Shown here: positions 13,507-62,928 of the stretch, piece after piece
Numbering within the stretch: position 1 is the first letter of the stretch
Layout: each line of letters starts with the position of its first letter
Assembly (NCBI RefSeq): GCF_000003815.2
Contig: NC_049980.1
Span: 24,237,808-24,301,807 of the forward strand
Direction of reading: 5' to 3'
DNA from: Branchiostoma floridae
Taxonomy: Eukaryota; Chordata; Leptocardii; Amphioxiformes; Branchiostomatidae
DNA length: 64,000 bases
Notes under the pieces: model-generated
What the model was told of the DNA's origin: nothing
The model's database searches: none
What the model saw: only the letters and a program-made list of their open reading frames with translations
Position numbers and translations under genes: made by a program

Positions 13507-16500
13507 ATGAGTTTTCCTTTCAAAGTTCTGTGGTTCTTGGCCGCGGCACACCTGTTGTTGGGCCTCCTGGCGGTGTTGCTCGGAATCGCAGACATTGTGA
13601 CTCACGTTCAGGCCAACCCAGATGGAGGGTTTGAAGTAACTTTACTAGCAGCACCAATCTGGTGTGGAATCCCTGTAAGTTTTTCTTCCACTTTAACCTT
13701 TACTAAGACGACCTTTCTTTAATGGCCAACGACATAAGGTTACCCCTGAAATGTGCAACCCGAGGTTCAGCAAATTAGCAACAATATCGCAACTAAACGG
13801 AGTCCATCGCAATTTCTTAGTCTGGCCAGCACTAAGTTTACTCTACCCATTTCTGTACCATTCCTTCACTTTGTGGAGGAGAAGAAGTGTTTTAACTTTA
13901 ATATGCATGTGTGTCATTTGTTCGTGTGCAGTTCCTGGTTGCAGGAGGGCTGGGCCTAGCAGTGTCACCCTACAAGCCCAATGTCCAAGAACAGGTGAGC
14001 TTTTCTCTCAAGTTTGACTTTTTGATGACAATTGTAACCTGGAGTGGAAGGAGGTGGGGCGATGACATCCGGGAGTGGATGGGCATACCACTGGCTGAGT
14101 GCGCCCACAGAGCCAGAGACAGAAGTGAGTGGAGGAGGCTGATACTGGATGCTACCATAGTCCCCGACCCTCAGACATGAGGATGGGCCTAGGTAAAGGT
14201 AAAGGTAACCTGGAGTGCAGTGAAAAATGGTCTTTTCTACTGTTGGGTTGATAGCCAATGGATTGCCTGTTTCCAACTGTCTTTCCAGACCCGCCAACAC
14301 TGGATCTGCTGCATGATCAACAGTATCCTGTTTGGGCCAATCATGTTCATCATTGCCATGGTGGATCTCTTCCTGGTGAGTTACTCACACTATCATGGTG
14401 TTCACCTTAATCATATCCCTCTGAGTACCAGTGGAGAGTGAGGATAAAGAGTTCAGTATGCTGTTCATCAAAGTTGAAAGTGCTGTATAAGATTTGCTTG
14501 TTAGCTATGGACTATATTTCATAGTAATCATTTACTGTACTTCTGAAGATTAGTGGACTTACAGCTGTAAGGTCTTTTTTTCCACCCGAGTGCACATTAT
14601 ACTGGTTAGAAACATTCCTATATGGTCCTATATGTAGTTTTTTTAGACAAATGAATGACAAGCAGTTTCAGATGGCAGTTTTGTTTAGACCATTTAACGT
14701 TACGTTGTCCATTATCTGTAACAACAAGAGATTCTGACCATGCCGAATGGTAATGCAGGTTATGATGAATTCTCCACCTTGTAGGAGGTGCAGACCTCCT
14801 CCATACAGGACCGGGACATTTCGTTTGAGATCGGGTTCATCATCATCTCTGTGCTGGAGACGTGGTGTGCCCTGGGCTCCGTCACCATCTACTGCCTGTA
14901 CAAGGCACCACGGCAGGCTAAGGAGGTGGGTGGACAGAAATTGTTTGTCTAATTTCCTAGAAGAATGGAATGAGGCTATAAGTGCCTTACTCACGTTCTT
15001 TGTAAGTCATCATTGATTTTGATGCCATAAAGTTTCCAAGCAGGCTGTGTCAACTAACCACCAACACGGATCTAAAATTTTCCAGAACAAGATGCACTCA
15101 CATTACTATCTCAACAATATCCCTCAGTTAACAATTGTAGGACGAATGTGATCCAGCTGTAAATGAAATGTAGTACATTATGTATAGGTTAATGTTGATA
15201 GCAATTTTAGTGTCTGTATATGGGCAATGTTATCATTAGTCATACTGCATGTTTGATCCCTTCTTCCTCTTGACTGCCAGCCCGAGGAAGGTGAGGTCAG
15301 GCTGTCCCCCTTTTCTCTGCTGGCACGCCACTGTACCGCCTGCAGTGCCTTCTGCAACAGGAGGAGGCATGCTGACAAGAACAGCTGGGTGACAGGTAGG
15401 TTCTCAACACAGACACCCTTTGCTGATGGTTAATGCTTATCATATACAGAAATACATGTGAATGAACCCAATAAAAACCATGATTTTATGAAAATGGGGC
15501 CCTTGCATGATGCCTGGTTGGTCCAGAAATTGAATCAGATCTAGCTGACCCCCTGCCCAACAGGTGATGATGATACAGAGGTGGTCATCACTTCCTCAGG
15601 AGCGGGTCTCCATGACAACGAGTCAGGTGTCCATCCCATCCCCGAGGACGCCTCTCCAGAGGAGAAGGAACTGTTCCTGGTGGCGCGGCGGCTGGAGGAG
15701 GAGAACGTCCGTCTTCAGAAGCAGCTGAAGGTCAAGTCACTGAAGGCAAAAGTCAAGAAGCTGCAGGTGTGTGTAGGGCTCAATGGTTATGTAACTACTT
15801 GTCCAGGGGCAACTAAAATTGATATGTCTGAACAACATCCCTAGAGCAAGCATGGCTCTGTGAAGTGTGCATGCAGCACTGTATATTGTTTTTCTTGTTT
15901 TTTCCAGCAAAACAACCGTGCCCTGTCACATAAGCTGAACAAGGTGCATGATGGGGACTCTGAGTCAATTATGATCAAAGGTGGGCTAGCCATTTAGCAT
16001 CTGTTTTAAAACTTAAGTAATACTCAACATGTAATCATATATTCCATACAGTCAACTGGTTTAACCACATGGTTACTTGGTACATCCTTCTTTCACTAAC
16101 AGTCTAGTTGTCATGTGTGTCAAAGAGAGTTGTGAACTATAAGTAACTGTGTCTGGTAGATACAAAAAATAACCATCTGCCATGATGGCTACAATTATTG
16201 CATGAGCAAGGACATCGTAATGAGCAGGCATATATGCAAATTAAAAAGTAGAGTAGGTTTCGTTGGAAAAATCTGTTACACAAGACTACCTATATGCTGC
16301 CTTTCCCCAAAGATTTAGCACCTTCCAGCACACAAGTGCACCATGGGAAGACTAGGGTGCATGATGGGAAGGAAAGGCAGCAACAGGCAGCCCTGTCTGA
16401 CAAGAGCCAACATAAGCAGGCAGCGCGAGACAAGAACAGGGCAACGTCGGCTGTCAAAAAGGGAAACATGAAGGCAGAGGGTGTCCAAAACCCTGATAAA

Positions 16501-19091
16501 CTTGAGACAATTGATGAGACTCAGAGTAACAATGATAAGAAAGCAGATATAGACTGTGAGTGTGGGGAGCCAGCTGAGAAACACAAACAGGGAGATGACA
16601 AGGAGAAAGCTGAGGAGACTAAGAATAGCAGTGAGGATGAAGCTGAGGCAAATTGTGAGGCTGAGGAGCCAGCCACAGAAGAAGTCTCAGCACAGGAAAA
16701 ACCCAATGAGCACACCACTACAGCAGACGTTCATGTAGAGGAAACACAAGATCTGTCTCCTGAACGTGGTGGGGCTCTATGTACATGTAATGGTGTTCTG
16801 CTCTGCATGCTGTTTTCTTGTACATTGACATGTCTTTTACCCTGCATGTGGTTGTGGTGTCTACTCACTCTACTGTCTAATGCATGACACTCTGCAGATT
16901 CTCTCAACACTCAAATGATGAATTCCAGTTTCAAACCTCCTTCACTGGGCAAAAATTTACTTAAGTTTAAACTTCATGTCCATTTTGGCTTTCAAAATCA
17001 ATGCCTATAAGGTTATTACAGGTGCAACGGTAAATCAAACTTGCTTATTACTGACATGTCTTACAAATGTTTATTCATAGAGGAGGAAATCCGCATGAGA
17101 CTTAAGGAGGCCCAGACATCCAAAAATGTCAATGCAATAAAAAATGCCATCAAGGAATTCCAAGATGCCAAACTGGAGGACTTTTCTGAAGACCTTCCAG
17201 CAGCACAAAAACAGCTGCTGGTCCTGGAGTTAAAGGCAGGTGAGTGATGTGCAGAGATATGTCACATTTGCCAGTAGGTTTCAGGTTCAGAGGCCAAGGA
17301 AATTTCAACATATCTAGATATGGCTTATGTCTTGTCTCCAGACTTTCTGTGTACAAATGTATCTGTATCTATATAGGCAGTATAACTGGCATTCAGCGTA
17401 ACACACCAGCTTCACAGATACATGGCATGGCAACAGCTGGTTAGAATCTGTATCAATATAGCTGTATATTTGTCCTTTGGCATAACTCACCAGTTTTGCA
17501 ATGTATGCATGTCTAAATCAATTGTTGCATTTCTCCACAGCTTTGGACAAGGCTATATCTAACAGACAAGTGTCCAAGATTGGGTCAGTCTTGACGGAGA
17601 TAAAGAAGAAAGGACTTCAAGACGTCATGTCCAGCGAAGTCGCACGGGCCAACAAGATGCTCATACTCATCAAGCAGATGGATAAACTCAGACAGGAGGT
17701 AGGGGACCTTACAAATGAAAGGACATATTTTGAGGCCAACTGGAATGTGAAGATAAAAAGAAAAGTACTGTCAGTTGTCTCCACCTATTACATTAACACA
17801 ATTGTTGGATAGTATCACATAGTAATAGTATATAGTATTCACAACCTCTTTTTCAGTGCCATGGCACCAGAGTAGGATTTTACTGTGACTTTACCCCTCA
17901 GGGATATCTATACCCAACAAGATATCTAAGCTTCAAAGCATCAACATTGTAGCAGTAATACTCCAAGGTACTGAATGTTATTGAAATGCTGTTCTTTCTC
18001 TTTTTGTTTATTCAAATCAACAGGTGATGAACATCAAACAGTCGACCATTGCTGAAATCCGGTCTTACAAGAATGCCTCTGAGCCTGTTCACAAGGTCAT
18101 GACAGCAACCTTCCTGCTACTGGGGGAGCATGAGAAGGACATCAAGGTGGGTAGGGCACTGCCTAGCAACCAGCAGGGGTGGCTTGGGACACAGGCTACA
18201 CAGTCCAAAGGGCAGAACTAAGATTAAGAACTGTTCCTACAATTGTCAGCAACTTCTATTGCTGAGAAATAATGAAACATAGGGTTGTGCATGATCTAAT
18301 ATGTAATTTTATGTATCCCCCCTTAAGAATGGAGTAGCCTATGTTGACTATCAGTCACTGCTCGTGTTGTTCAGGACTGGTCCGCCTTGAAGATACTGGT
18401 GGGGAAGTCAGGCAAGGATGCCCTGAAGCAGAGGGTGGAGCATTGCAATGTTGCCAAGATACCAGCTGCCGTTGCAACCAAAGTGCAGGAGATGCTGGTC
18501 CCGTTCCGCCTGGAGGAGGTTCGGGACCACAGTGCTGGAGCAGCCACCTTCTTCCTCTGGGTGAGATACAGTCTCTTACTGTGGTGTTGCTCCTGCAGTT
18601 TGGGTGCATCATGGATTGGGGCTGTCTATGGGACCCTTTCGTCTGTAGTCAGACGAATATTAGCTTGTCACTAAAAAAAAAACATTCACCCTGTCCAGAA
18701 CTTCATGATGCATATGTGATGAAAATGTAGTTTGGGAAGCTTTAAAGTTTAAACAATGAAAATCAAAAACATAGGCTCCCAAACAATGAGTTAGACAGAA
18801 GCAATTTAAAGCTGGACACAGCCTTGATAGGATGTTAAGAGGGCAGGCAGCTGTAGGGAGGGAACAGGCCTACACTGAAGCTGTGACCCCCAGGCATGTT
18901 CCTTTTGTGATCATGAGAAAAATGTAGCCTTTTTTTACGTTATGAATTTCACTCATGCATCAAAACTGTACATGATGTACATGATTAATACTGTACTGCA
19001 TTGAATTATTTTGTTTTACTTTCTGGTGCCCCAGGCAAACGGAATGGCAGATGAAGTACTGGAGGGAGCAGCACAAGGGGCGGCAGCTTAA
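13507..19091 (+). CDS. Four-transmembrane (CD20-like) protein fused to a dynein-stalk-like microtubule-binding region
   Basis: Thirteen exons join in frame: 13507-13674, 13932-13994, 14289-14375, 14785-14925, 15281-15395, 15564-15766, 15908-15980, 16313-16768, 17081-17239, 17541-17698, 18024-18146, 18375-18560, 19035-19091. The product is 662 residues. The ATG at 13507 has A at -3. Residues 1-150 hold four hydrophobic segments (about 6-31, 44-67, 86-106, 118-145) in a layout like MS4A/CD20, sarcospan or FAM189 proteins, with APIWCGIPFLVAGGLGLA spanning TM2. A cytoplasmic tail follows: Cys/Arg patch, acidic stretch, coiled coil (about 222-280) and a Lys/Glu-rich linker (284-435). Residues 436-541 are two helical repeats. 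Residues 542-655 resemble the dynein heavy chain stalk tip: EIRSYKNASEPVHKVMTA, DWSALKILVGKSG, then FRLEEVRDHSAGAATFFLWA. There are no AAA+ modules. Inference: a membrane protein that could bind microtubules. The fusion rests on phase agreement only. Confidence 0.75.
16769..16887 (+). other. Readthrough extension of exon 8 encoding a hydrophobic tail
   Basis: If the donor at 16769 is not used, the frame of exon 8 stays open to a stop ending at 16887. It would add about 40 residues, mostly Leu, Cys, Trp and Met (GVLLCMLFSCTLTCLLPC in the middle), enough for a membrane span. This could be chance intron sequence or an alternative C-terminus that replaces the stalk-like region. Confidence 0.3.
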
Positions 19092-20813
19092 TCATGGTGA
19101 ACAACACTACCTACATGCATGTCAGTTACCTACATGTAGGTACATGAGATGTCAATGCCTGAACAGAATATACATATTTCTGTAGGCTCTGAGCTTGTTC
19201 AGTCTGGTTGACTTTGATCATTGTTAAAGGAAACCATTGGAGAAGTGTAAATTCATTATGTTCTGTCGGCGACTGTACCACAAAGTTGATTTCTGTGATA
19301 TGTGCCTCCAGAGGTTTGAACAGAACATAAGCAGAAAGAGTGCCACCCAACTGCATCTACAAGCAAACATTAATGTTAAGTGTTTCACCAAGGTAGAATT
19401 AGGAATAGGAAGGATTCTGTATCCAGATTGTCTGTTGTTACACACAAACCCGCCTATTGGCAGCTGATTTAGTGTGAAGCTATTTTATCAGTGCAGGGTG
19501 TAATGTACATGTACATGTACTTGTTGATGTCTTGAAACATTTTTTTGTTGTAAAGCATAAACCTATGAGTTATCTACCTCATCATATCCAATAGTTTTTA
19601 CCTGACCGTAAAGTGTACGTTCATTTTCCTAGTACCACTTAGATTTATATGCTGTGACAAATATGCTTTGTAACCACAAAAGACTTTGTTTGATTTTGAG
19701 ACTATTGTGTTTCAGCTCTCCAACACTTTATTAGATTTTATATGCACCAAGGGAGTGATATAGATGGGGATAGGCATGTTCCTATGAAACATGCATGTAC
19801 TGTTGCCCTAAGTTGTTTTTTTTTACTTGAGAACGATATAACTTATGATAAACTTGAATATACAGTCAATCTCTCAGACAACCAATGCACTCAATTTCTT
19901 CTGAATGTATCAGCTGTAATATAGTAAATACACTGTATACATGTATAGGTGAAATCTTTGCACACTTATGTGGATAATACTATTTGAATGTGAATAGTGC
20001 TAAGTATCATCAGACTCTGTTTTTTCCAAGATCAAACATAGGAGATATTTTTTAAACTTATGTACAATGTAACAGACGAGCTAAATGGTACTACATATTA
20101 CATAAGAAACTTTAAGGTACTACATATTGCTCATATGTAATATATTTTTATATATGTTAACATCTATAGAGAGACATTTGTAGAGGACAACACAAGTTCT
20201 TCTTTCAACACTGTAACAAATGCACTCTTCCTTGGGATTGATGACATGGGTACAGCAAATTACATTCAATTTGTACCTTTTTCTAATAATACATTGTTCT
20301 TTCAAAATGCCAACAATGGAGGATTGCACATAGATTTGACACTTATATTAAGGTTGGCATCTTTGAAGTAGTTAAAAGTTCAACTGATTTTGAGTACTTT
20401 TCACTTAAGGAAAGAGTGTGACAGACAGACTGTATGAAATGTGTGTCTATGTTTAACTTAATAAACCAGTTAACATATAGCTGTTTTTTGTTACCTACTT
20501 GCTTTATAGGCACACTACAAAGGCCATATCTATATATCACAATGAATGATTGTGGCACCCAAGCCTAGCACAATTAATACCTCCCCAGAAGGGCAACAAA
20601 TACAACACTGTCATAATTGCTCCTTTCAACCTTCAATACAGTAGACTTTATAAGGTCAGTTAGACCTTCACACCTTCTCCGATCAGACTGAATCTGTAGG
20701 TCCAGGTATCCCACACCAGTGGGCTAGTTGGGTAATCCTTACAGCCATGACAGATAAGCATACAATAAAACAAACAAGATGAACATGACAGAAGCAGTTC
20801 TGGCCTCCCAGTC
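19092..20813. other. Convergent 3' region between the four-TM/stalk gene and FAM91A1
   Basis: This 1.7-kb AT-rich interval carries the 3' UTRs of two converging genes. Plus-strand AATAAA signals lie at 20460-20465 and 20764-20769. A minus-strand AATAAA (plus-strand TTTATT, 19727-19732) could serve FAM91A1. If these are used, the two 3' UTRs overlap in antisense. A short block of repeated TACATGTA lies near 19504-19520. I see no coding gene. Confidence 0.4.
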
Positions 20814-23800
20814 CTACTTGCCGTCCCACATTGTTAGTGTCCCCTCGTGGAACAGTAAATTCCTGGTGGGGAGGGGCACGCCGTGGTCCTGACTAGTGGT
20901 CCCTCCAACAGGGGCTGGGCTGTCTCCCCCCTGCTCTGGTACAATGGGCAGATCCTGAGGAAGGAGCAATATTTAGCATGTAAGTGAGTAGAATAAATTA
21001 AAATTTGCACTGGCAAGCCAAAAGAGGAAATATTCTGATTTAAATGGAAAAAATACATTACATACATACATTTTCAAAATTGAATTCTTCAGTACAAATA
21101 CAGATAATCAGGAGTTATCTGTGTACATAATCTAATCCGCAATCCTTCTAATAACAATCTTATATCAAAGCCCTAAGCATTACCTGCACATAACATGGCA
21201 CAGAGTGAATGAGAAAACATAATCATGAAGTAGACGGTACAGACCTGGTTTTCAGATATGAAGTCCAGCAGCTGCAATACCAGTTTTCGACTGGAGTGGA
21301 GCAGCTCTCCAAGGCTGCAAAAGGAGTTCAGATCATGGTTCAGATTCAAATGTACACGTTGTTCTTTAACTAAAGCCAAGTGTAAAAAGCTTTTACTTTA
21401 AATGTAAAGAACAACAATAGAATAGAAAGAAAACATGACAAACATTGAGTACTAGATTATCTATTTTCTTGCCTTTTGAAAATAAAAAGGTAAAAGGAGA
21501 AACCAAACTAATGCTTCATTATGAACCTGCTACATGTACATTAAGGTGCAATGGCCAACCCACCTCTCCAGCCTACACAGGCCCTGTGCAGCCATCCTCT
21601 CACACACACGTGTGTTGAGTTCCCCGTTAAACAGTGGGATCCCATAGAACATGTCCAGCATGACCCACTCAGCCTCCGCATCCTCCGTCTGGCCTTCTTT
21701 TCTTCCGTTGCTCCTCAGCGGCGATGAGACATCGAGCGAGAGCGTGTCCCGATTCACCATCACAAACGAGTCCCCACTGTTCTCTCCATTGGAGGATCCC
21801 TCCTTCTGTCCTTCCGTGACGTTCTGTCCTTGTTGTGTTGGCATGGTGATGACCTGGGCAGAGGGTCGATGAGTCTTGCCAGTTTTCAGCATGGTGACAT
21901 ACCCACAGGTGTGGCTGAGGTCCAGTTGGGAGGCCAGCTTCTGCACCGCATAGTGAGCCTGCATCATGTTTCTGGAGAATAAAACTGACAAAACACACTG
22001 TTTAATGTACTGGGAGGCAGTAAGGTGTCCATAAATGAGCTTAAAGTTAAGAAGGCAATAGTTTTCAACTACATTGGTGGTCGATCCCTACCTTTGTCAC
22101 CTGCATCCTCCAGAGGGAAGGGGACATATTCTGTCTCACCATCTGTGTACAGTCCATGGGCCTGGGGCAACAAGCAACAAGTAGTATATACACTTAACAC
22201 ATACACACTGCACACTGTACCACTAGGTAGGTAAGCATATAAAAACTGCAAACTCTCTTCGCCCTTAGTTTTATATTTTATAAGACCTGTAAAACAGTAC
22301 ATACTATGGAAAAATACTTAGAATTAGATAATATTGATTTACGCTCGGCAATCAGCAAAATTAGAATTAGTGCCCACCCTCTCGAAATTGAGAGAGGGCG
22401 GTACAAGAGGCTATCCGTGTGTGAAAGAACGTGCAAACAATGCACGTCAAACGTGGTGGAAGACGAGACACATTTTATGTCAATCTGCTCTTTCTATAAT
22501 CAAGAAAGAAAAGAGCTGTTCAAAGAAGCCATCAAATTCCATCCAAACTTTTTCACATTCACTGACAAAAAGAAAGCAGTTCACCTTTTAACATCACTAA
22601 ACCCACACATAATAGAAAAAGTGGGATCTTTCATCTTCCACTGTCTTCGAAAAAGGAGTCGAACCCAATAACCCAGGATCTAGAGTTAGTTTTTACTAGT
22701 TTAAGACTAGAGTAGACACTTGTGTTATTGTATTTTACACTGTTTGAATCTATGTTACCTGCAATTAGCCCGCGGGCAAGAATTTGCAATAAACTTGATT
22801 GAATATATTACAATGTAGGTGGATAGAGGTTACACCATAGAACCTCCTTTGTTACACCCAAAGCCACTTAGTAACAAAACCCTCTGAAAATACTATAACC
22901 TGCTTTACATCGTATCTGTGGTTGCAACACAATGCTCTGCTCAGAAAACACAAAAATCCACATATTATTACGGAATGTCTATACTATAGTCCTTTTCACA
23001 AACGTGCAAGTTGGCACTCATGAATATGATAAGATCTTGAAATATATTATAGGAGAGGAAAGCAGAAGAGGTGAAACAGGAAAGGTTGGGTAGGGCTACC
23101 AGGCTGAGGTTTTAAGGAACCAACATTCAAGCCTCCATGCATACCATACTTGTGTCCAATAGATGACAGTGTTGTGTAGGATAACTTCTTTTGTTTAAAA
23201 TTTGGCCCATGAAACAGGTCGGATTCACAGGCCATCCAAAAATAATCATTTGCATAATTAATGCCAACTAGTGTTGGACAGGCCAACCAAGTCCGTCTAT
23301 GTTTTATTTTTATTGTGGTTTCATGTATCAAAGATGAAACAAAATATCATAATAAACATCAGTAGACCAGCTACAAACCTTTTTATTGTGTTAATGAATT
23401 AGTTTTGTTGTTATTAGATACAACTAAGGAAACATTCTGTGTTCTTAGTATAATATACAAGAAGGAATTGCTTCCGATTGCTTTGCACATAAATTATGTT
23501 AATGAGCTGCAGTATAGTACAATGGGTAAGGCTATTATTATGGCTCTTTTCTTAGTACTTTTTGGAATAAAAAAAAACAAAATATTATTCCTAAGATTGA
23601 CACAGGCAAAGAAGATAGACGGTAACTGTTGTTAGTGCTTTTATGTTCATTTTCCCTAGAAAACATTTCTCCCAGCGTGCATTGCGAAAAAGAAAGTAGA
23701 GGCGAAGCCAGTTTGCGAAGTGGTTTGTTTTCCACCTAGCACAACACTAAAAATAGGATTGTTTTGTGTATCAAATTCTAGAGCTTGGAGAAGTACGCGG

Positions 23801-35800: not shown

Positions 35801-38800
35801 CAGTGACTACCTGGAAGATGGCCAGCTTCATCTATTGATCAATCAAACAACTAATGGACCAACCAACTACTTATCTGTTGATCAAATACATGTAACTTCC
35901 AACACAAAGTAAAATGGAAGATATCAGCTGTTGGTTTCCCATAACCAATGCTGGGTAAAGAACATGTGGGTGGCCCATGATCATTAACAGTGTCTGCAAG
36001 CAGCATGCCCAAGGAAAAAAAAACTTTTACAGGGTCCATGAACTAACTTTCTATCAATTTGCTATTCTGAGAGAAAAGATATTATCAGTGTAATGGACTG
36101 GAGATAAGCAATAATTTACGAGACAGTTGAAGAATGAAGTAGAAATGATTGTAAATAGCTGAGACAAAAGGATATAACGCAGTTAAAAGTCCCAATCCTA
36201 TAACGTTCATAATGCATAGAAGATAATGTCTGACTTAGAAACAAACCATGCATATACACAAGCTACATTTTGTACTGTATGTTTTTCTTCTATGTAAGGT
36301 TCAACCTCTTTTGTCACTGAACGTCTGCACTAACTGGAAGATGGCCAAACCAACTGTAAACAATAGGGATAAACTGTGGTCCGACCTGCTAGCTCACCTA
36401 TGCTTCTTCACATATAGCTGTGGCTAAACCTTAAGGAAATGTCCCTCTATAGGCCATGGGTGTATCACACACCTGTGAGTATGTACTGATTTTATCCACC
36501 TGATCAATAAGAAATGAAGATGTGGAATGTTTAGTGACATGTTGGACACACAGGACTCGTGCAATGATGATTACTTTGTCCCCACTTCCAGCCATCTATA
36601 CAGCTGTGTTTGAAAGACTTGGAAAGAGAGATCTTCTATCACAATACCGAAAGCATTGAAATCAACAACCCTCATCTCCAGTCATCTTCAGAAAGTCATG
36701 TTCAACTTTTGAAGTGACTGTCATTTCCAAGTTCAATGCCATAGATGACAGCCTATGTCTTTTATCACACATAAATTCATTGATAAATAGAAAAAATGGT
36801 TGATTCAGAAATGGTTTTTTTTTTATACCTTTAATATAGCTGCTTTTTTTTCAGGTACATGGAATACGTTGATACAAAATGTCTTGTATATGACAATACC
36901 CAGAGGTAGATGACATGATTAAATATGTTTTTTTATGCTACACTTGCATGAAATGCCAACACAGTGTTCCTCCCTAAGGTAAGTTACAAAGTCAAGTTCT
37001 CCGTCATATAGGAAACAGCCATCATCCTTATCTCAAATTGGATATTGTGTACAATATATTGATATACATACACAGTTGCACTGTGTTAACTTTACAGATC
37101 AAATCTACTTCATAAATCCTGGACATCAGGAACACATGATAAAACTCACTAAGCCTTGACTCAACATTATAACAAAAAGGCGAAAGGCAATATGTATAAT
37201 TATTCATATTCACATGTATAAAAGTATGAAAAATATATTACACAACCTGAAAACCACATTTGTTAACCTTCTCTGAAGGATTTGTAAACATACAATAATT
37301 GTTTTCTGATGACCACAAAAAAAATCTTTCAGCATTTGGACGCACATTTCCAACAAATTTCTCAGTCAAAACAAGACATTGCTTGCTGTTTCCTGTGAAT
37401 CATTGATTACACAAGTATTCTTTGATTTGATTTTGCAAATGTGGAATTCAGATAGTACCCTGAAACAGGCATAACATTGACAGGTGTGGCACACCTGGTG
37501 TCACTGAAAAAATAAGGTCTGCATTCTAATGCTACAGACTGACATAACATGGCATGCTACTGGTAACGTTACATAGTACAAAGAAACATGCTTCTAGCTT
37601 CCAGACTGACAAGTCTGGATTTAAATAAGTTCTGTACATATGCTGATGGTTGGTAATATACTGCCAATGTTTACTACTAGACTGGCTTTGGTGATCTTTA
37701 TGTACAACTGCAAGGTTTCTGAAACAAACTGGCATGTAATATCTACTATCTGTAACTGATAAAGGGCACTCACACTGACTTCCTGAACACAAACAGATCA
37801 TGGAACTATCAACATGCATGTTTCTATCTTTTTTTTTTACAAATCTGGATATGGTAGTCATAATCCTCCACATAACACTGTAATAACTAAAAAAACATCA
37901 TCGCTTTTATGGCAGTAGAGCTTTTACATCACCTCAAGTGTCAAAGGAAAAAGGGACCATCTATTTATTGAAGACCAGCCAATATATACACTGAAACTAT
38001 GCCATGTTCCTCTGACAGTCTGTTGTAAACCCAGATAGGTTTACTTTCCACTCAGATCAAAGCAGTCTCCTCCAGTTGATGCCAGTCCAAACTGGGCTCC
38101 ATTGCCTGTTTGATCTGGTCTGAACTGGTTCAAACTGGTCTGATCTTCATTGACACCGACTTTAAGGAGTAGAACGCTCCCTTCCAATCCCACCACACGA
38201 TGCCCTGCCAGCTGGCTGACTCCCCTCTCCGCTGGTATTTCCCATTGAGTAGGGAGTGACTACACGAGCCATACCACCATCCCCCTCCCCCATCTCTCTG
38301 TGCACAGTTCCCCTCCATGGCATCATTGTCCCTGTCCTTGGTGGTGAACGCCCGTCCATTGTTCATACTCATGGAGTCCCCGGCTGTACCGGAGTAGCCA
38401 CCGAGCTTCAGCATGAAATCCTCGCTGTCCTCACAGACTCGGAAAGAGGAGTAGATGGCGTACGCCTTGTTCCCTTCCCAATCCTCCAGGTCCACTCGGA
38501 GCTTGTAGTGTCCCTGGTTGCTGAGACGGTAGATCTGGTTCAGACCCAGCCAGTATTCGCCCGTAACTCGGCCAAAACCATTCTTGTAGTCGGTCCAGCT
38601 GCGAGCGAAACTCACCGACCTAAAAGAACAAGACTCAGTTTCAGCATGAAGGCTCATCCATATTGCATTGTCAGATGCCTGACCAAGAGTGGAGAAGTCG
38701 GTCGAAATATTCGTATAGTGAATCAACTCTTAAGTGTAGTTTGAACTTTTTCAAAAAGCCTTGTGATCAGTTTCTTTATCAATCTTATAATTTCAAACAA

Positions 38801-60307: not shown

Positions 60308-62928
60308 ATGGGACAAGTACGGTACCACCGATTGGTAAGTTGGCGCTTTTGTTATTTTCGCAACGAAAGGGAGATGCTTTCAGTTTCAGCAAGGACGTTG
60401 CTTTCAGGTTTCAAAATAACGTCATCAACATGTTACAGTTTGTGTGAAGAAGAATGTAGCCATGCTAAATCTAACCCTCTATGAGATATCTGTCTAATCA
60501 ATTTTAGAAGCTGAAACATATGCATTACTCCATGGGGGTCTGGTGATCTATCGTACAGACCAACTACACCCCCCTCCCCCTCACCACCACACATACAACC
60601 TGGTCCAGCTCTCTGCCACATGCTAGTTTTTGTAACGACAAAAATGAAATGGGGACGTAAGTCTCCCTAACAAACAGCCAGTGACATTTCAAACTAAGTT
60701 AAGTTTTGAAAACAATTATGATGGTGTAAAAATACAAGGCACATCATTCTTTAATGCACAGTGTACTAGTACATTATAATTGGGGCACTTGGGGCAAGAA
60801 GTTTTGATTGATTGATTGATTGATCTTATAGGGTAGTCCCTTCAGTCTAGATGACTGATTTCCAAGGGAGCCCTGAACATGTTCGCACATGTTTACACGG
60901 CGGGGTTATAACGCCCCTTACGGGGTGACATACCCTTTCGCTGGTAAATCACCGTGTGGCTGATACGGTATGGAGGTTCGCCAGGCCTCCATCCGGGTGA
61001 TTTGAAGTGAATCACCAACTCCAGACAGAAGGGTTTGTTCCATCTCACACCGCACCATCGCACGTGTGGGGGTTCTTTAACGTGCATGGGGTGTGACTCT
61101 CCCCATACACGGGATCTCCATTTAACGTCCTATCCAAGGGACGGCCCTAGCCGAAGCTAGGTACTCATTTTCACCTGAGTATAGTGAGGAAATTCGTGTA
61201 AAGTGCCTTTCCCAAGGGCACAAGATCGGTGACACGCAGCCGGATTTGAACCCGCAACCTCTCGGTCACGAGGCACAAATCCTGCCACTGCGCCAAGCGA
61301 TCTCACAGTTTCACTTTCAGATCCTGTTAAGCACTGAAACCAGCATATTGCCATTGATGTTTTTACAATGACATTTTGTACATATTGGAAAATTCTGTTA
61401 ATCAATGTACAAATTGGAGATACTAAAGATGCACTGTTTCATGGCAGTTAATGTTACCAGTAACATGAGAGACGAAGTTCAAATGATATCTGTGTGTGGT
61501 AAATCATACAGTGCAGGACTTTCCATCATTTTCAGTAAGGTTACTTGAAAGTACAAAAATCATGTTTCTTGGAGGTTAAAACGAGTAGGAACTTCAAAGT
61601 CCTGTTGAATGTTCATCACATTATCCACAATATCAGTGGACTTGATAATGCTGAATTATCTCACATGATCTCATGACTCCTCTTTGCAGTGCCCCCTGCT
61701 GATCCTGACCATGGCTGCAGTGTGCGTCATGATGGTAGCATCTATGCAAGACCCAGAAATGGACAGCAAGGAAATTCAGAATGTGGGAGCAGCTATAAGA
61801 AGAGCAGCAGAATCTGTGCAAAAGGCTCGGTCAGACATCAAAGAAGCAGAGAGAGCAATAGAAAAGTCAGGACTACCTGAGGAACTGTCTGCAGCATTCA
61901 GGGTGGTTCTAAGGGAAAAGGTTGAAGAGGAATTGGGAACAGGACACCACAACACGGGCCAAATTGGGAAAACAGACAGTATTCTTGTTGAACAGCTTCT
62001 AAAATTGGTACCAGAACATTCAGAAGGCTATGCCTCTCAGGACACAAGAACGCATCCTGGACTTCTAATGACAGTATGTGATCTGGTAAAAACTGTACTC
62101 TTGGTTCCTGTCCATATGGTGGCATTCATTGTTTGGAGGGTAGGGCAGTTTTTGTGCTGGTGTCTGGACAATTTCATGGCTTCCCCTGTCTTTGTGTACA
62201 AGACTTTGCAGTGGATCAAGTGGTTTGGAGCAACTGTTATTTCTGTGCTAATCAAAAGTGTTGCACTTTTGGTATCACTGATATATGTTCTCATTGCCTT
62301 TGTTTTGTATACAGTTTACTCAGCAGTTGCCTTTGTGTTCAGCACACTGTGGATGCTGCTATATGGAATGTGTTCCATCATAATGATACCTATCCACATC
62401 CTTATCCTGTCCTCTCCCCTGCTGTTCATGTACCTTATCAACCAACCAGATGCTAACCACATCGTGCGCTGGCTGCAGGAAACAGCACGCAGTGTACAAA
62501 CATTTATCAGAGACATGTTTGTAGAATACCAGTCCAGACAGCAGCCGTTACCAAACCCGTCAGTGCAGGCCTCACCCCTTGGGTTCACCGCATACCCGAC
62601 TGTGAGTTCAGCACCAAGGACAGAGGTACCGGCAGATGCTGAGGGGTGGGAGTTTCACGAACACCTGCTGCAGCCTCGCAGGAGTGGCAGGCTGAGTAGC
62701 CTGCGGAGACATTTCTTCATAGAGGACACAGAGAATGACAACTCCTGTGTGGTGTGTCTGGATCGCCCAGCGAACATGACGCTGAGGCCGTGTGGCCACC
62801 GGTGCGTCTGTAGAAGGTGCGCGTGGAGGATCCTGAACCCCAGGGTTGGAGAGGATGGGGGGAAATGTCCACTGGACAGGCAGCCAATCTTTGTGGCCGT
62901 GCCTGACCGCATTTGTGTGATTATGTAG
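60308..62928 (+). CDS. Multi-pass membrane protein with C-terminal RING finger (probable E3 ubiquitin ligase)
   Basis: Exon 1 (60308-60334, nine codons, MGQVRYHRL, donor TTG|GTAAGT) joins in phase 0 to exon 2 (61690-62928, acceptor CTCCTCTTTGCAG). Product: 421 residues. Residues 10-27 are hydrophobic (signal anchor or signal peptide). Residues about 35-95 form a charged helix (VQKARSDIKEAERAIEK). Residues about 134-260 carry four to five membrane spans rich in Leu/Val/Ile. A Pro/Ser-rich linker follows. Residues 362-405 are a compact RING: CVVC, then RPCGHRCVCRRC, then CPLD. The final ligand position is Asp rather than Cys, as tolerated in some RINGs such as RBX1. Compact C-terminal RINGs of this kind occur in membrane E3 ligases (for example MUL1) and IAPs. 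Substrates are unknown. The short first exon is less certain than exon 2; a start at the Met in LILTM is an alternative. A possible AATAAA lies at 63634-63639. Confidence 0.82.
60805..61306 (-). mobile_element. tRNA-derived SINE
   Basis: On the minus strand a tRNA-like head has an A box TGGCGCAGTGG (61285-61295) and, 32 bases later, a B box GGTTCAAATCC (61242-61252), i.e. an internal RNA polymerase III promoter. A unique body of about 400 bp follows, containing a CTTGGGAAAGGCAC block. The 3' end is an (AATC)n tail (about 60806-60824 on the plus strand as GATT repeats). Length and order are those of a nearly full-length SINE, inserted in the intron of the RING gene. Confidence 0.8.

Follow-up and report, generated by a model that had tools for sequence, protein, structure and literature searches.

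The microtubule-binding tip of the dynein stalk sits between the AAA4 and AAA5 modules of the heavy chain, and to our knowledge it is known only within the motor, where the registry of the two stalk helices CC1 and CC2 determines how it grips. Four-pass membrane proteins of the CD20/MS4A type were judged to be absent from invertebrates in a survey that included lancelet sequences, and most of them are 300 amino acids or shorter (PMC2826416). The present analysis concerns a gene in a stretch of 64,000 nucleotides of the Branchiostoma floridae genome (contig C2, positions 24237808-24301807; the whole stretch is referred to as the window), where its predicted product joins hydrophobic segments to a C-terminus resembling the dynein stalk tip. 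Our best explanation, held with about as much confidence as doubt, is a four-pass membrane protein with a long tail that ends in a dynein stalk-tip homologue and acts as a static tether between membrane and microtubule.

Rebuilding the gene from the DNA gave 13 exons at 13507-19091 (+) forming one open frame of 662 amino acids, and all 12 introns were of the GT-AG type, which bears out the phase-matched exons proposed in an initial annotation of this DNA. Four hydrophobic segments come first in the protein; a coiled-coil-like stretch and then a charged linker follow, and a module resembling the stalk tip forms the C-terminus. Exons 1-4 (13507-13674, 13932-13994, 14289-14375 and 14785-14925) encode residues 1-153 with the four hydrophobic segments, which are weakly CD20/MS4A-like. 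Residues 154-283, encoded by exons 5-7 (15281-15395, 15564-15766 and 15908-15980), hold a cysteine-containing stretch followed by a coiled-coil-like one at about residues 225-275, with weak Pfam matches (E 0.024 and 0.3), and exon 8 (16313-16768) encodes the charged low-complexity linker, residues 284-435, with phase 1 at both ends and a weak donor.

The module itself corresponds to residues 436-662 and exons 9-13. Exon 9 (17081-17239; residues 436-488), with the phase-1 acceptor that marks the module entry, and exon 10 (17541-17698; residues 489-541) encode the first and second helical-hairpin repeats, the second lying where dynein has CC1. They are followed by exon 11 (18024-18146; residues 542-582) with helix H1 of the stalk tip and the next helix (IAEIRSY...VHKVMTATFLLLG), and by exon 12 (18375-18560; residues 583-644) with the rest of the tip through helix H6 (DWSALKILVGKSG...SAGAATFFLW). 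Exon 13 (19035-19091; residues 645-662 and stop) carries the ending that in the paralogs approximates the pattern AxGMIxEVE, then a short tail, and no CC2. A likely poly(A) signal in the 3' untranslated region, AATAAA, was located at 20460-20465 (+).

Searches of the source genome (513 Mb) showed that the C-terminus of the window protein matches other loci of the same genome at E values down to 1.9e-20. The module was found at 14 loci, on contigs C2 (the window gene), C3, C5, C7 (six copies, C7a-f), C10 (two copies, C10a and C10b), C14, C18 and C204, and a typed family consensus recovered the same set of 14. A C4 match to the window C-terminus (E 6.67) was rejected as a coiled coil; the last-ranked match to the consensus (E 0.19, on C13) is one of the loci found by a genome scan with the dynein stalk family PF12777. 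In the C5 copy (L045/L026), the exon of the first hairpin seems by eye to be frame-shifted by one base, through either an assembly error or damage to this copy. The joining of a stalk-tip-like C-terminus to membrane segments described in the initial annotation holds for the gene model but is not one of a kind, as the module recurs at 14 loci with several N-terminal partners.

The module is very probably homologous to the microtubule-binding stalk tips of dynein. PF12777 misses the window protein, but support comes through its paralogs, as a profile of the family finds dyneins. The profile was built from 11 of the 14 loci (C3, C18 and C10b, initially represented mainly by their last long exon, were left out) and yielded 67 PDB matches at E <=1; among the best 60 of these, dynein heavy chains occupied the first 52 places, with E values from 8.8e-9 (DNAH6) to 0.075. 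Eight of these 52 entries have labels without the word dynein, and we take them to be dyneins by their length or as known heavy chains. The best matches were DNAH6, a heavy chain whose label says no more than AAA+ protein, DNAH10 and DNAH2, and the first non-dynein among the best 60 was DRC2 (E 0.099), the sole other one shown being TatB. Short tip constructs with a stalk stub (6kio, 6kjn and 6kjo; 130-141 amino acids) matched at about 3e-6, over profile positions 46-102 only. Taken individually, seven of the 11 members matched PF12777 at E <=10 (best 4.5e-5), the window member not being among them.

Compared with five PDB dynein tips by hhalign, the family scored 98.4% (P 9.8e-15), and the window sequence by itself 90% (P 1.5e-6). 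When a profile of the five dyneins was used as query, all 11 members scored between 24.1 and 46.1 bits in comparison to 4.5 bits for the best of 220 shuffles; the window module reached 24.1 bits, which places its stalk-tip pattern beyond chance, and the best shuffle in another set of 220 reached 7.4. The mouse DYNC1H1 tip, the one comparison dynein chosen without the family profile, gave 6.9-19.9 bits for the members as a single query and 4.1 bits for the best shuffle. A tree of the 14 family rows and the five dyneins separated the two groups with support of 99/100. The window row paired with C5 at 89/82, which is not firm, and two dynein branches were long; the tree alignment and the consensus query of the genome search contain some residues read across splice joins.

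Several results weigh against this reading. PF12777 did not match the window protein or its C-terminus in Pfam at E <=10, so that the similarity expected of residues 436-662 to this family was not found in the window protein itself, while a positive control, the mouse DYNC1H1 tip, scored 36.5 bits. NCBIfam, and phmmer against the PDB, gave no dynein match when the window protein or its C-terminus was searched by itself, and the 33 hits of the PF12777 genome scan (E <=0.001, best candidates only) included none of the family's 14 loci. The C5 paralog joined from its exons scored 12.6 bits with PF12777 against a cut-off of 24, and the window module had the lowest score of the 11 members with both dynein queries. 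Furthermore, the hhalign and five-dynein-profile scores are not fully independent, because four of the five dyneins were chosen among the hits of the family profile. Structure prediction of exon 12 alone (62 amino acids) gave a predicted local distance difference test (pLDDT) score of 50 and was uninformative.

Comparison of the loci showed a common anatomy for the module, consisting of two helical hairpins, H1, H2-H6 and a short tail. In each of the seven loci where the entry acceptor was read, it is in phase 1, with two bases preceding the first complete codon; script reading covered the window gene, C204, C7b and C18, and C5, C7a and C10a were read by eye from the DNA. The intron separating the hairpins agrees in phase among the window gene, C7b, C5 and C18 (script) and C14 (by eye). 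In all 14 loci the last long exon has an acceptor directly before the residue preceding the first Trp, and its donor follows the last Trp codon; H6 is characterized by an invariant Ser, Gly, Ala and Ala (S-x-G-A-A) and Trp. The intron before H1 is not common to the family. It has the same place only in the window gene and both C10 copies, and C14, C7a, C7c, C7d, C7e and C7f read straight through this position; C204, C5 and C7b have an intron of the H1 region at other places, the loci read for this intron not including C3 and C18. An extra intron seems to be present within the H1 exon of C10b.

A last exon of the AxGMIxEVE type was identifiable within 1.5 kb in 12 of the 13 paralogs, and none was found within this distance in C204. 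The candidate ranked first by a simple score in most paralogs, with a tie in C7d and second place in C7e, and the DNA read for C10a ends before the stop codon of this exon. In the window protein, 18 residues and the stop follow the H6 Trp. As the protein stops soon after H6, the return helix CC2 is missing wherever the end is readable (the window gene and 12 of 13 paralogs). The absence of AAA modules given in the initial annotation was correct, with no AAA match at E <=10 in the 662 residues (Pfam), but the loss of CC2 had been overlooked. The intron positions also bear on the capture of an exon from a particular dynein, which was considered and rejected: two dynein-like loci on C13 (L001 and L002) have an intron in common, some 9-10 residues beyond the tip Trp, and that of the module falls before the Trp, so the module shares no intron with these two there. 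L002 also contains the tip exon a second time, as an incomplete copy.

The shared phase-1 entry intron, together with the varied N-terminal partners, fits the shuffling of a module, in agreement with the exon shuffling first suggested for this gene. The partners include the four-pass membrane protein of the window, immunoglobulin (Ig)-like repeats of the KY type at six C7 loci and charged helical stretches. All six C7 modules are found 1.5-3.5 kb downstream of KY Ig-like repeats (PF23265) on the same strand, measured as nearest-hit distances, within C7:10535000-10572000 and C7:12605000-12629000 (L023-L036, L040, L046 and L048), and the module thus recurs as a C-terminal partner. In genome searches, the KY loci on C2, C4 and C18 had no adjoining module match. 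The upstream frame of C7a matched Ig-like_KY at E 3.8e-71 and is followed, ahead of the module, by a CARD-like stretch (CARD_2, E 0.033, below the cut-off); a stretch resembling it was noticed by eye in C7b. Stretches rich in Glu, Lys and Arg precede the module in C204, C10a and C18, the upstream open frames of C14, C204 and C5 had no Pfam match above the curated cut-off, and nothing telling was seen upstream of C10b. Position and phase suggest that each partner and its module form a single transcript. In the open-licence literature searched, no paper was found on a KY-repeat and stalk-tip layout, and no title found there described a non-dynein stalk-tip protein; absence from other animals is not claimed.

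At the N-terminus, hydropathy predicts that the chain crosses the membrane four times within residues 1-150, near residues 7-25, 42-67, 90-113 and 118-140. Matches to PF04103 in Pfam reached 21.8 and 23 bits, under the gathering cut-off of 27.9; the score of 23 bits (E 9.2e-5) was that of residues 1-171, and the weak Pfam similarity spans residues 10-87. The best PDB match was the Fc-epsilon receptor beta chain, which we take to be an MS4A protein (E 0.27, residues 3-147), tied with the hypothetical membrane protein 7qhm at the same E value. The source genome contained no second copy of the membrane part at E <=10. The four hydrophobic segments noted initially are thus present, but scores below the cut-off leave kinship to CD20 only suggestive, and this part is best regarded as a putative four-pass protein with CD20-like features and no more.

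The capacity of the module to bind microtubules was assessed from the residues that contact tubulin. Dynein forms salt bridges through H1 K3117, E3122 and R3124, H3 R3152 and R3159 and H6 R3201 (PMC7042235), and D427 is the tubulin partner of K3299 (PMC6629372). These residues were transferred to mouse numbering by alignment and through the shared partner D427, with R3201 equated by us to R3382. The family alignment showed that the H1 Glu and the H1 Arg/Lys are kept in 11 of 11 members and that the H3 place of R3342 (R3159) is basic (Lys/Arg) in 10 of 11. Other contacts have diverged: at the H3 place next to the Trp (R3152), four of 11 have a basic residue and the window protein has Ser, the equivalent of Lys3299 is basic in none of ten (Gln in seven; C7b not read there) with its neighbour Lys3298 basic in four of ten, and the equivalent of H6 Arg3382 is basic in none of 11, being Asp in eight. 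The antiparallel stalk of CC1 and CC2 is likewise not present, as CC2 is missing. On these mixed contact residues, microtubule binding by the module could equally well hold or fail, and altered binding or a new partner is nearly as likely.

This pattern can also be interpreted as a dynein-derived tip that no longer binds microtubules and serves instead as a protein-protein or oligomerization domain, with the small residues of H6 (S-x-G-A-A) as a new contact surface. We consider such repurposing a serious possibility, though one that falls short of even probability. The lost H6 and Lys3299 charges, the invariant Ser, Gly, Ala, Ala and Trp peculiar to the family, the missing CC2 and partners such as the KY Ig-like repeats, which are not known to us to act at microtubules in any evident way, all point in its direction. 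The conserved H1 and H3 residues argue for retained binding, as does an Arg one place ahead of the lost H6 position in nine of 11 members, and Dictyostelium dynein is reported to make the same bridges with shifted H3 residues (PMC7042235).

For the membrane-microtubule tether that we prefer, stalk registry switching cannot work in the window protein because it has neither AAA ring nor CC2, which points naturally to a static role. ATP cannot switch it through stalk registry, and if tubulin is still held, the protein would be a static, ATP-independent tether of membrane to microtubule (or cilium), with its tail presumably on the cytosolic side.

The tether also presupposes one transcript, and exons 1-13 most probably form a single fused gene, as phases and splice sites agree. 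A rough donor matrix, entered by hand, was used to score the 12 donors, and 11 of them scored 2.7-8.1 bits; that of exon 8 was the lowest at 1.2 bits, ranking between the 90th and 95th percentile among all 4062 GTs in the window, and its exact place is unsure because of this weak score. Four alternative donors of the right phase in the exon 8 open frame score above zero (0.5-2.5), one of them beyond the chosen donor. The frame of exon 8 is open past its donor to 16884, with a strongly hydrophobic tail and a stop at 16885-16887 (+). The weak donor and this hydrophobic C-terminal stretch would suit two genes, the first consisting of exons 1-8 with that stop and the second starting near exon 9, an arrangement that we consider unlikely. 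Because exons 5, 7 and 8 all have a phase-1 end, the frame is maintained in several joins, and that into exon 9 is independent of the exon 8 donor. The phase-1 acceptor of exon 9 matches the six paralogs read (C204, two C7 loci, C10, C18 and C5), and neither AATAAA nor ATTAAA occurs between exons 8 and 9, the next AATAAA falling within exon 9 at 17136. The segment 16769-16887 (+) could represent a form that retains the intron, has a fifth membrane segment and lacks the stalk tip. Finally, a chance helical resemblance without descent shared with dynein tips, which would suit a window protein that alone stays under the Pfam and phmmer thresholds, is highly improbable given the PDB dyneins found by the family profile, the hhalign value of 98.4% and the margin of all members over shuffles.

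More broadly, the module may be a C-terminal building block placed on different N-terminal parts at 14 or more loci of the source genome, in which case part of a giant motor has been put to new use, with several partners and a common phase-1 intron at its entry. We tentatively suggest that the dynein tip has become a mobile C-terminal module outside motors, whose constitutive, ATP-independent grip would define a new class of membrane- or scaffold-bound microtubule linkers. A tip family without return helix and ring would reveal what the tip does alone and provide a natural test of which tubulin contacts are needed, and the window protein would add a membrane-anchored candidate linker to microtubules.

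Three other open frames of the window were noted. A frame of 199 amino acids at 38133-38729 (-) seems by its motif to resemble a fibrinogen C-terminal domain, and a frame of 419 amino acids at 61669-62925 (+) has several hydrophobic segments. The frame at 22243-22668 (+), with a similar stretch in C18, seems to resemble the end of a non-LTR (long terminal repeat) retroelement protein.

In comparison to known systems, the window protein resembles CD20/MS4A proteins in its four hydrophobic segments within the first 150 residues and in the weak PF04103 and Fc-epsilon receptor beta matches, and differs in remaining under the Pfam cut-off and in its length of 662 residues, most MS4A proteins not exceeding 300 (PMC2826416). 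KY proteins (kyphoscoliosis peptidase-like, PF23265) share with it the module that follows the KY repeats at six C7 loci, whereas the window protein itself is without a KY match in Pfam. Relative to the dynein microtubule-binding stalk domain (PF12777), the module is C-terminal, has no AAA ring and no CC2 and has lost the basic contact of H6, but it retains a helical stretch at the position of CC1, and its tip elements follow one another as in dynein and with like spacing: E-I-R/K-x-Y/F, P-P, V, L-L-G, W, V-x-x-S and the final W.

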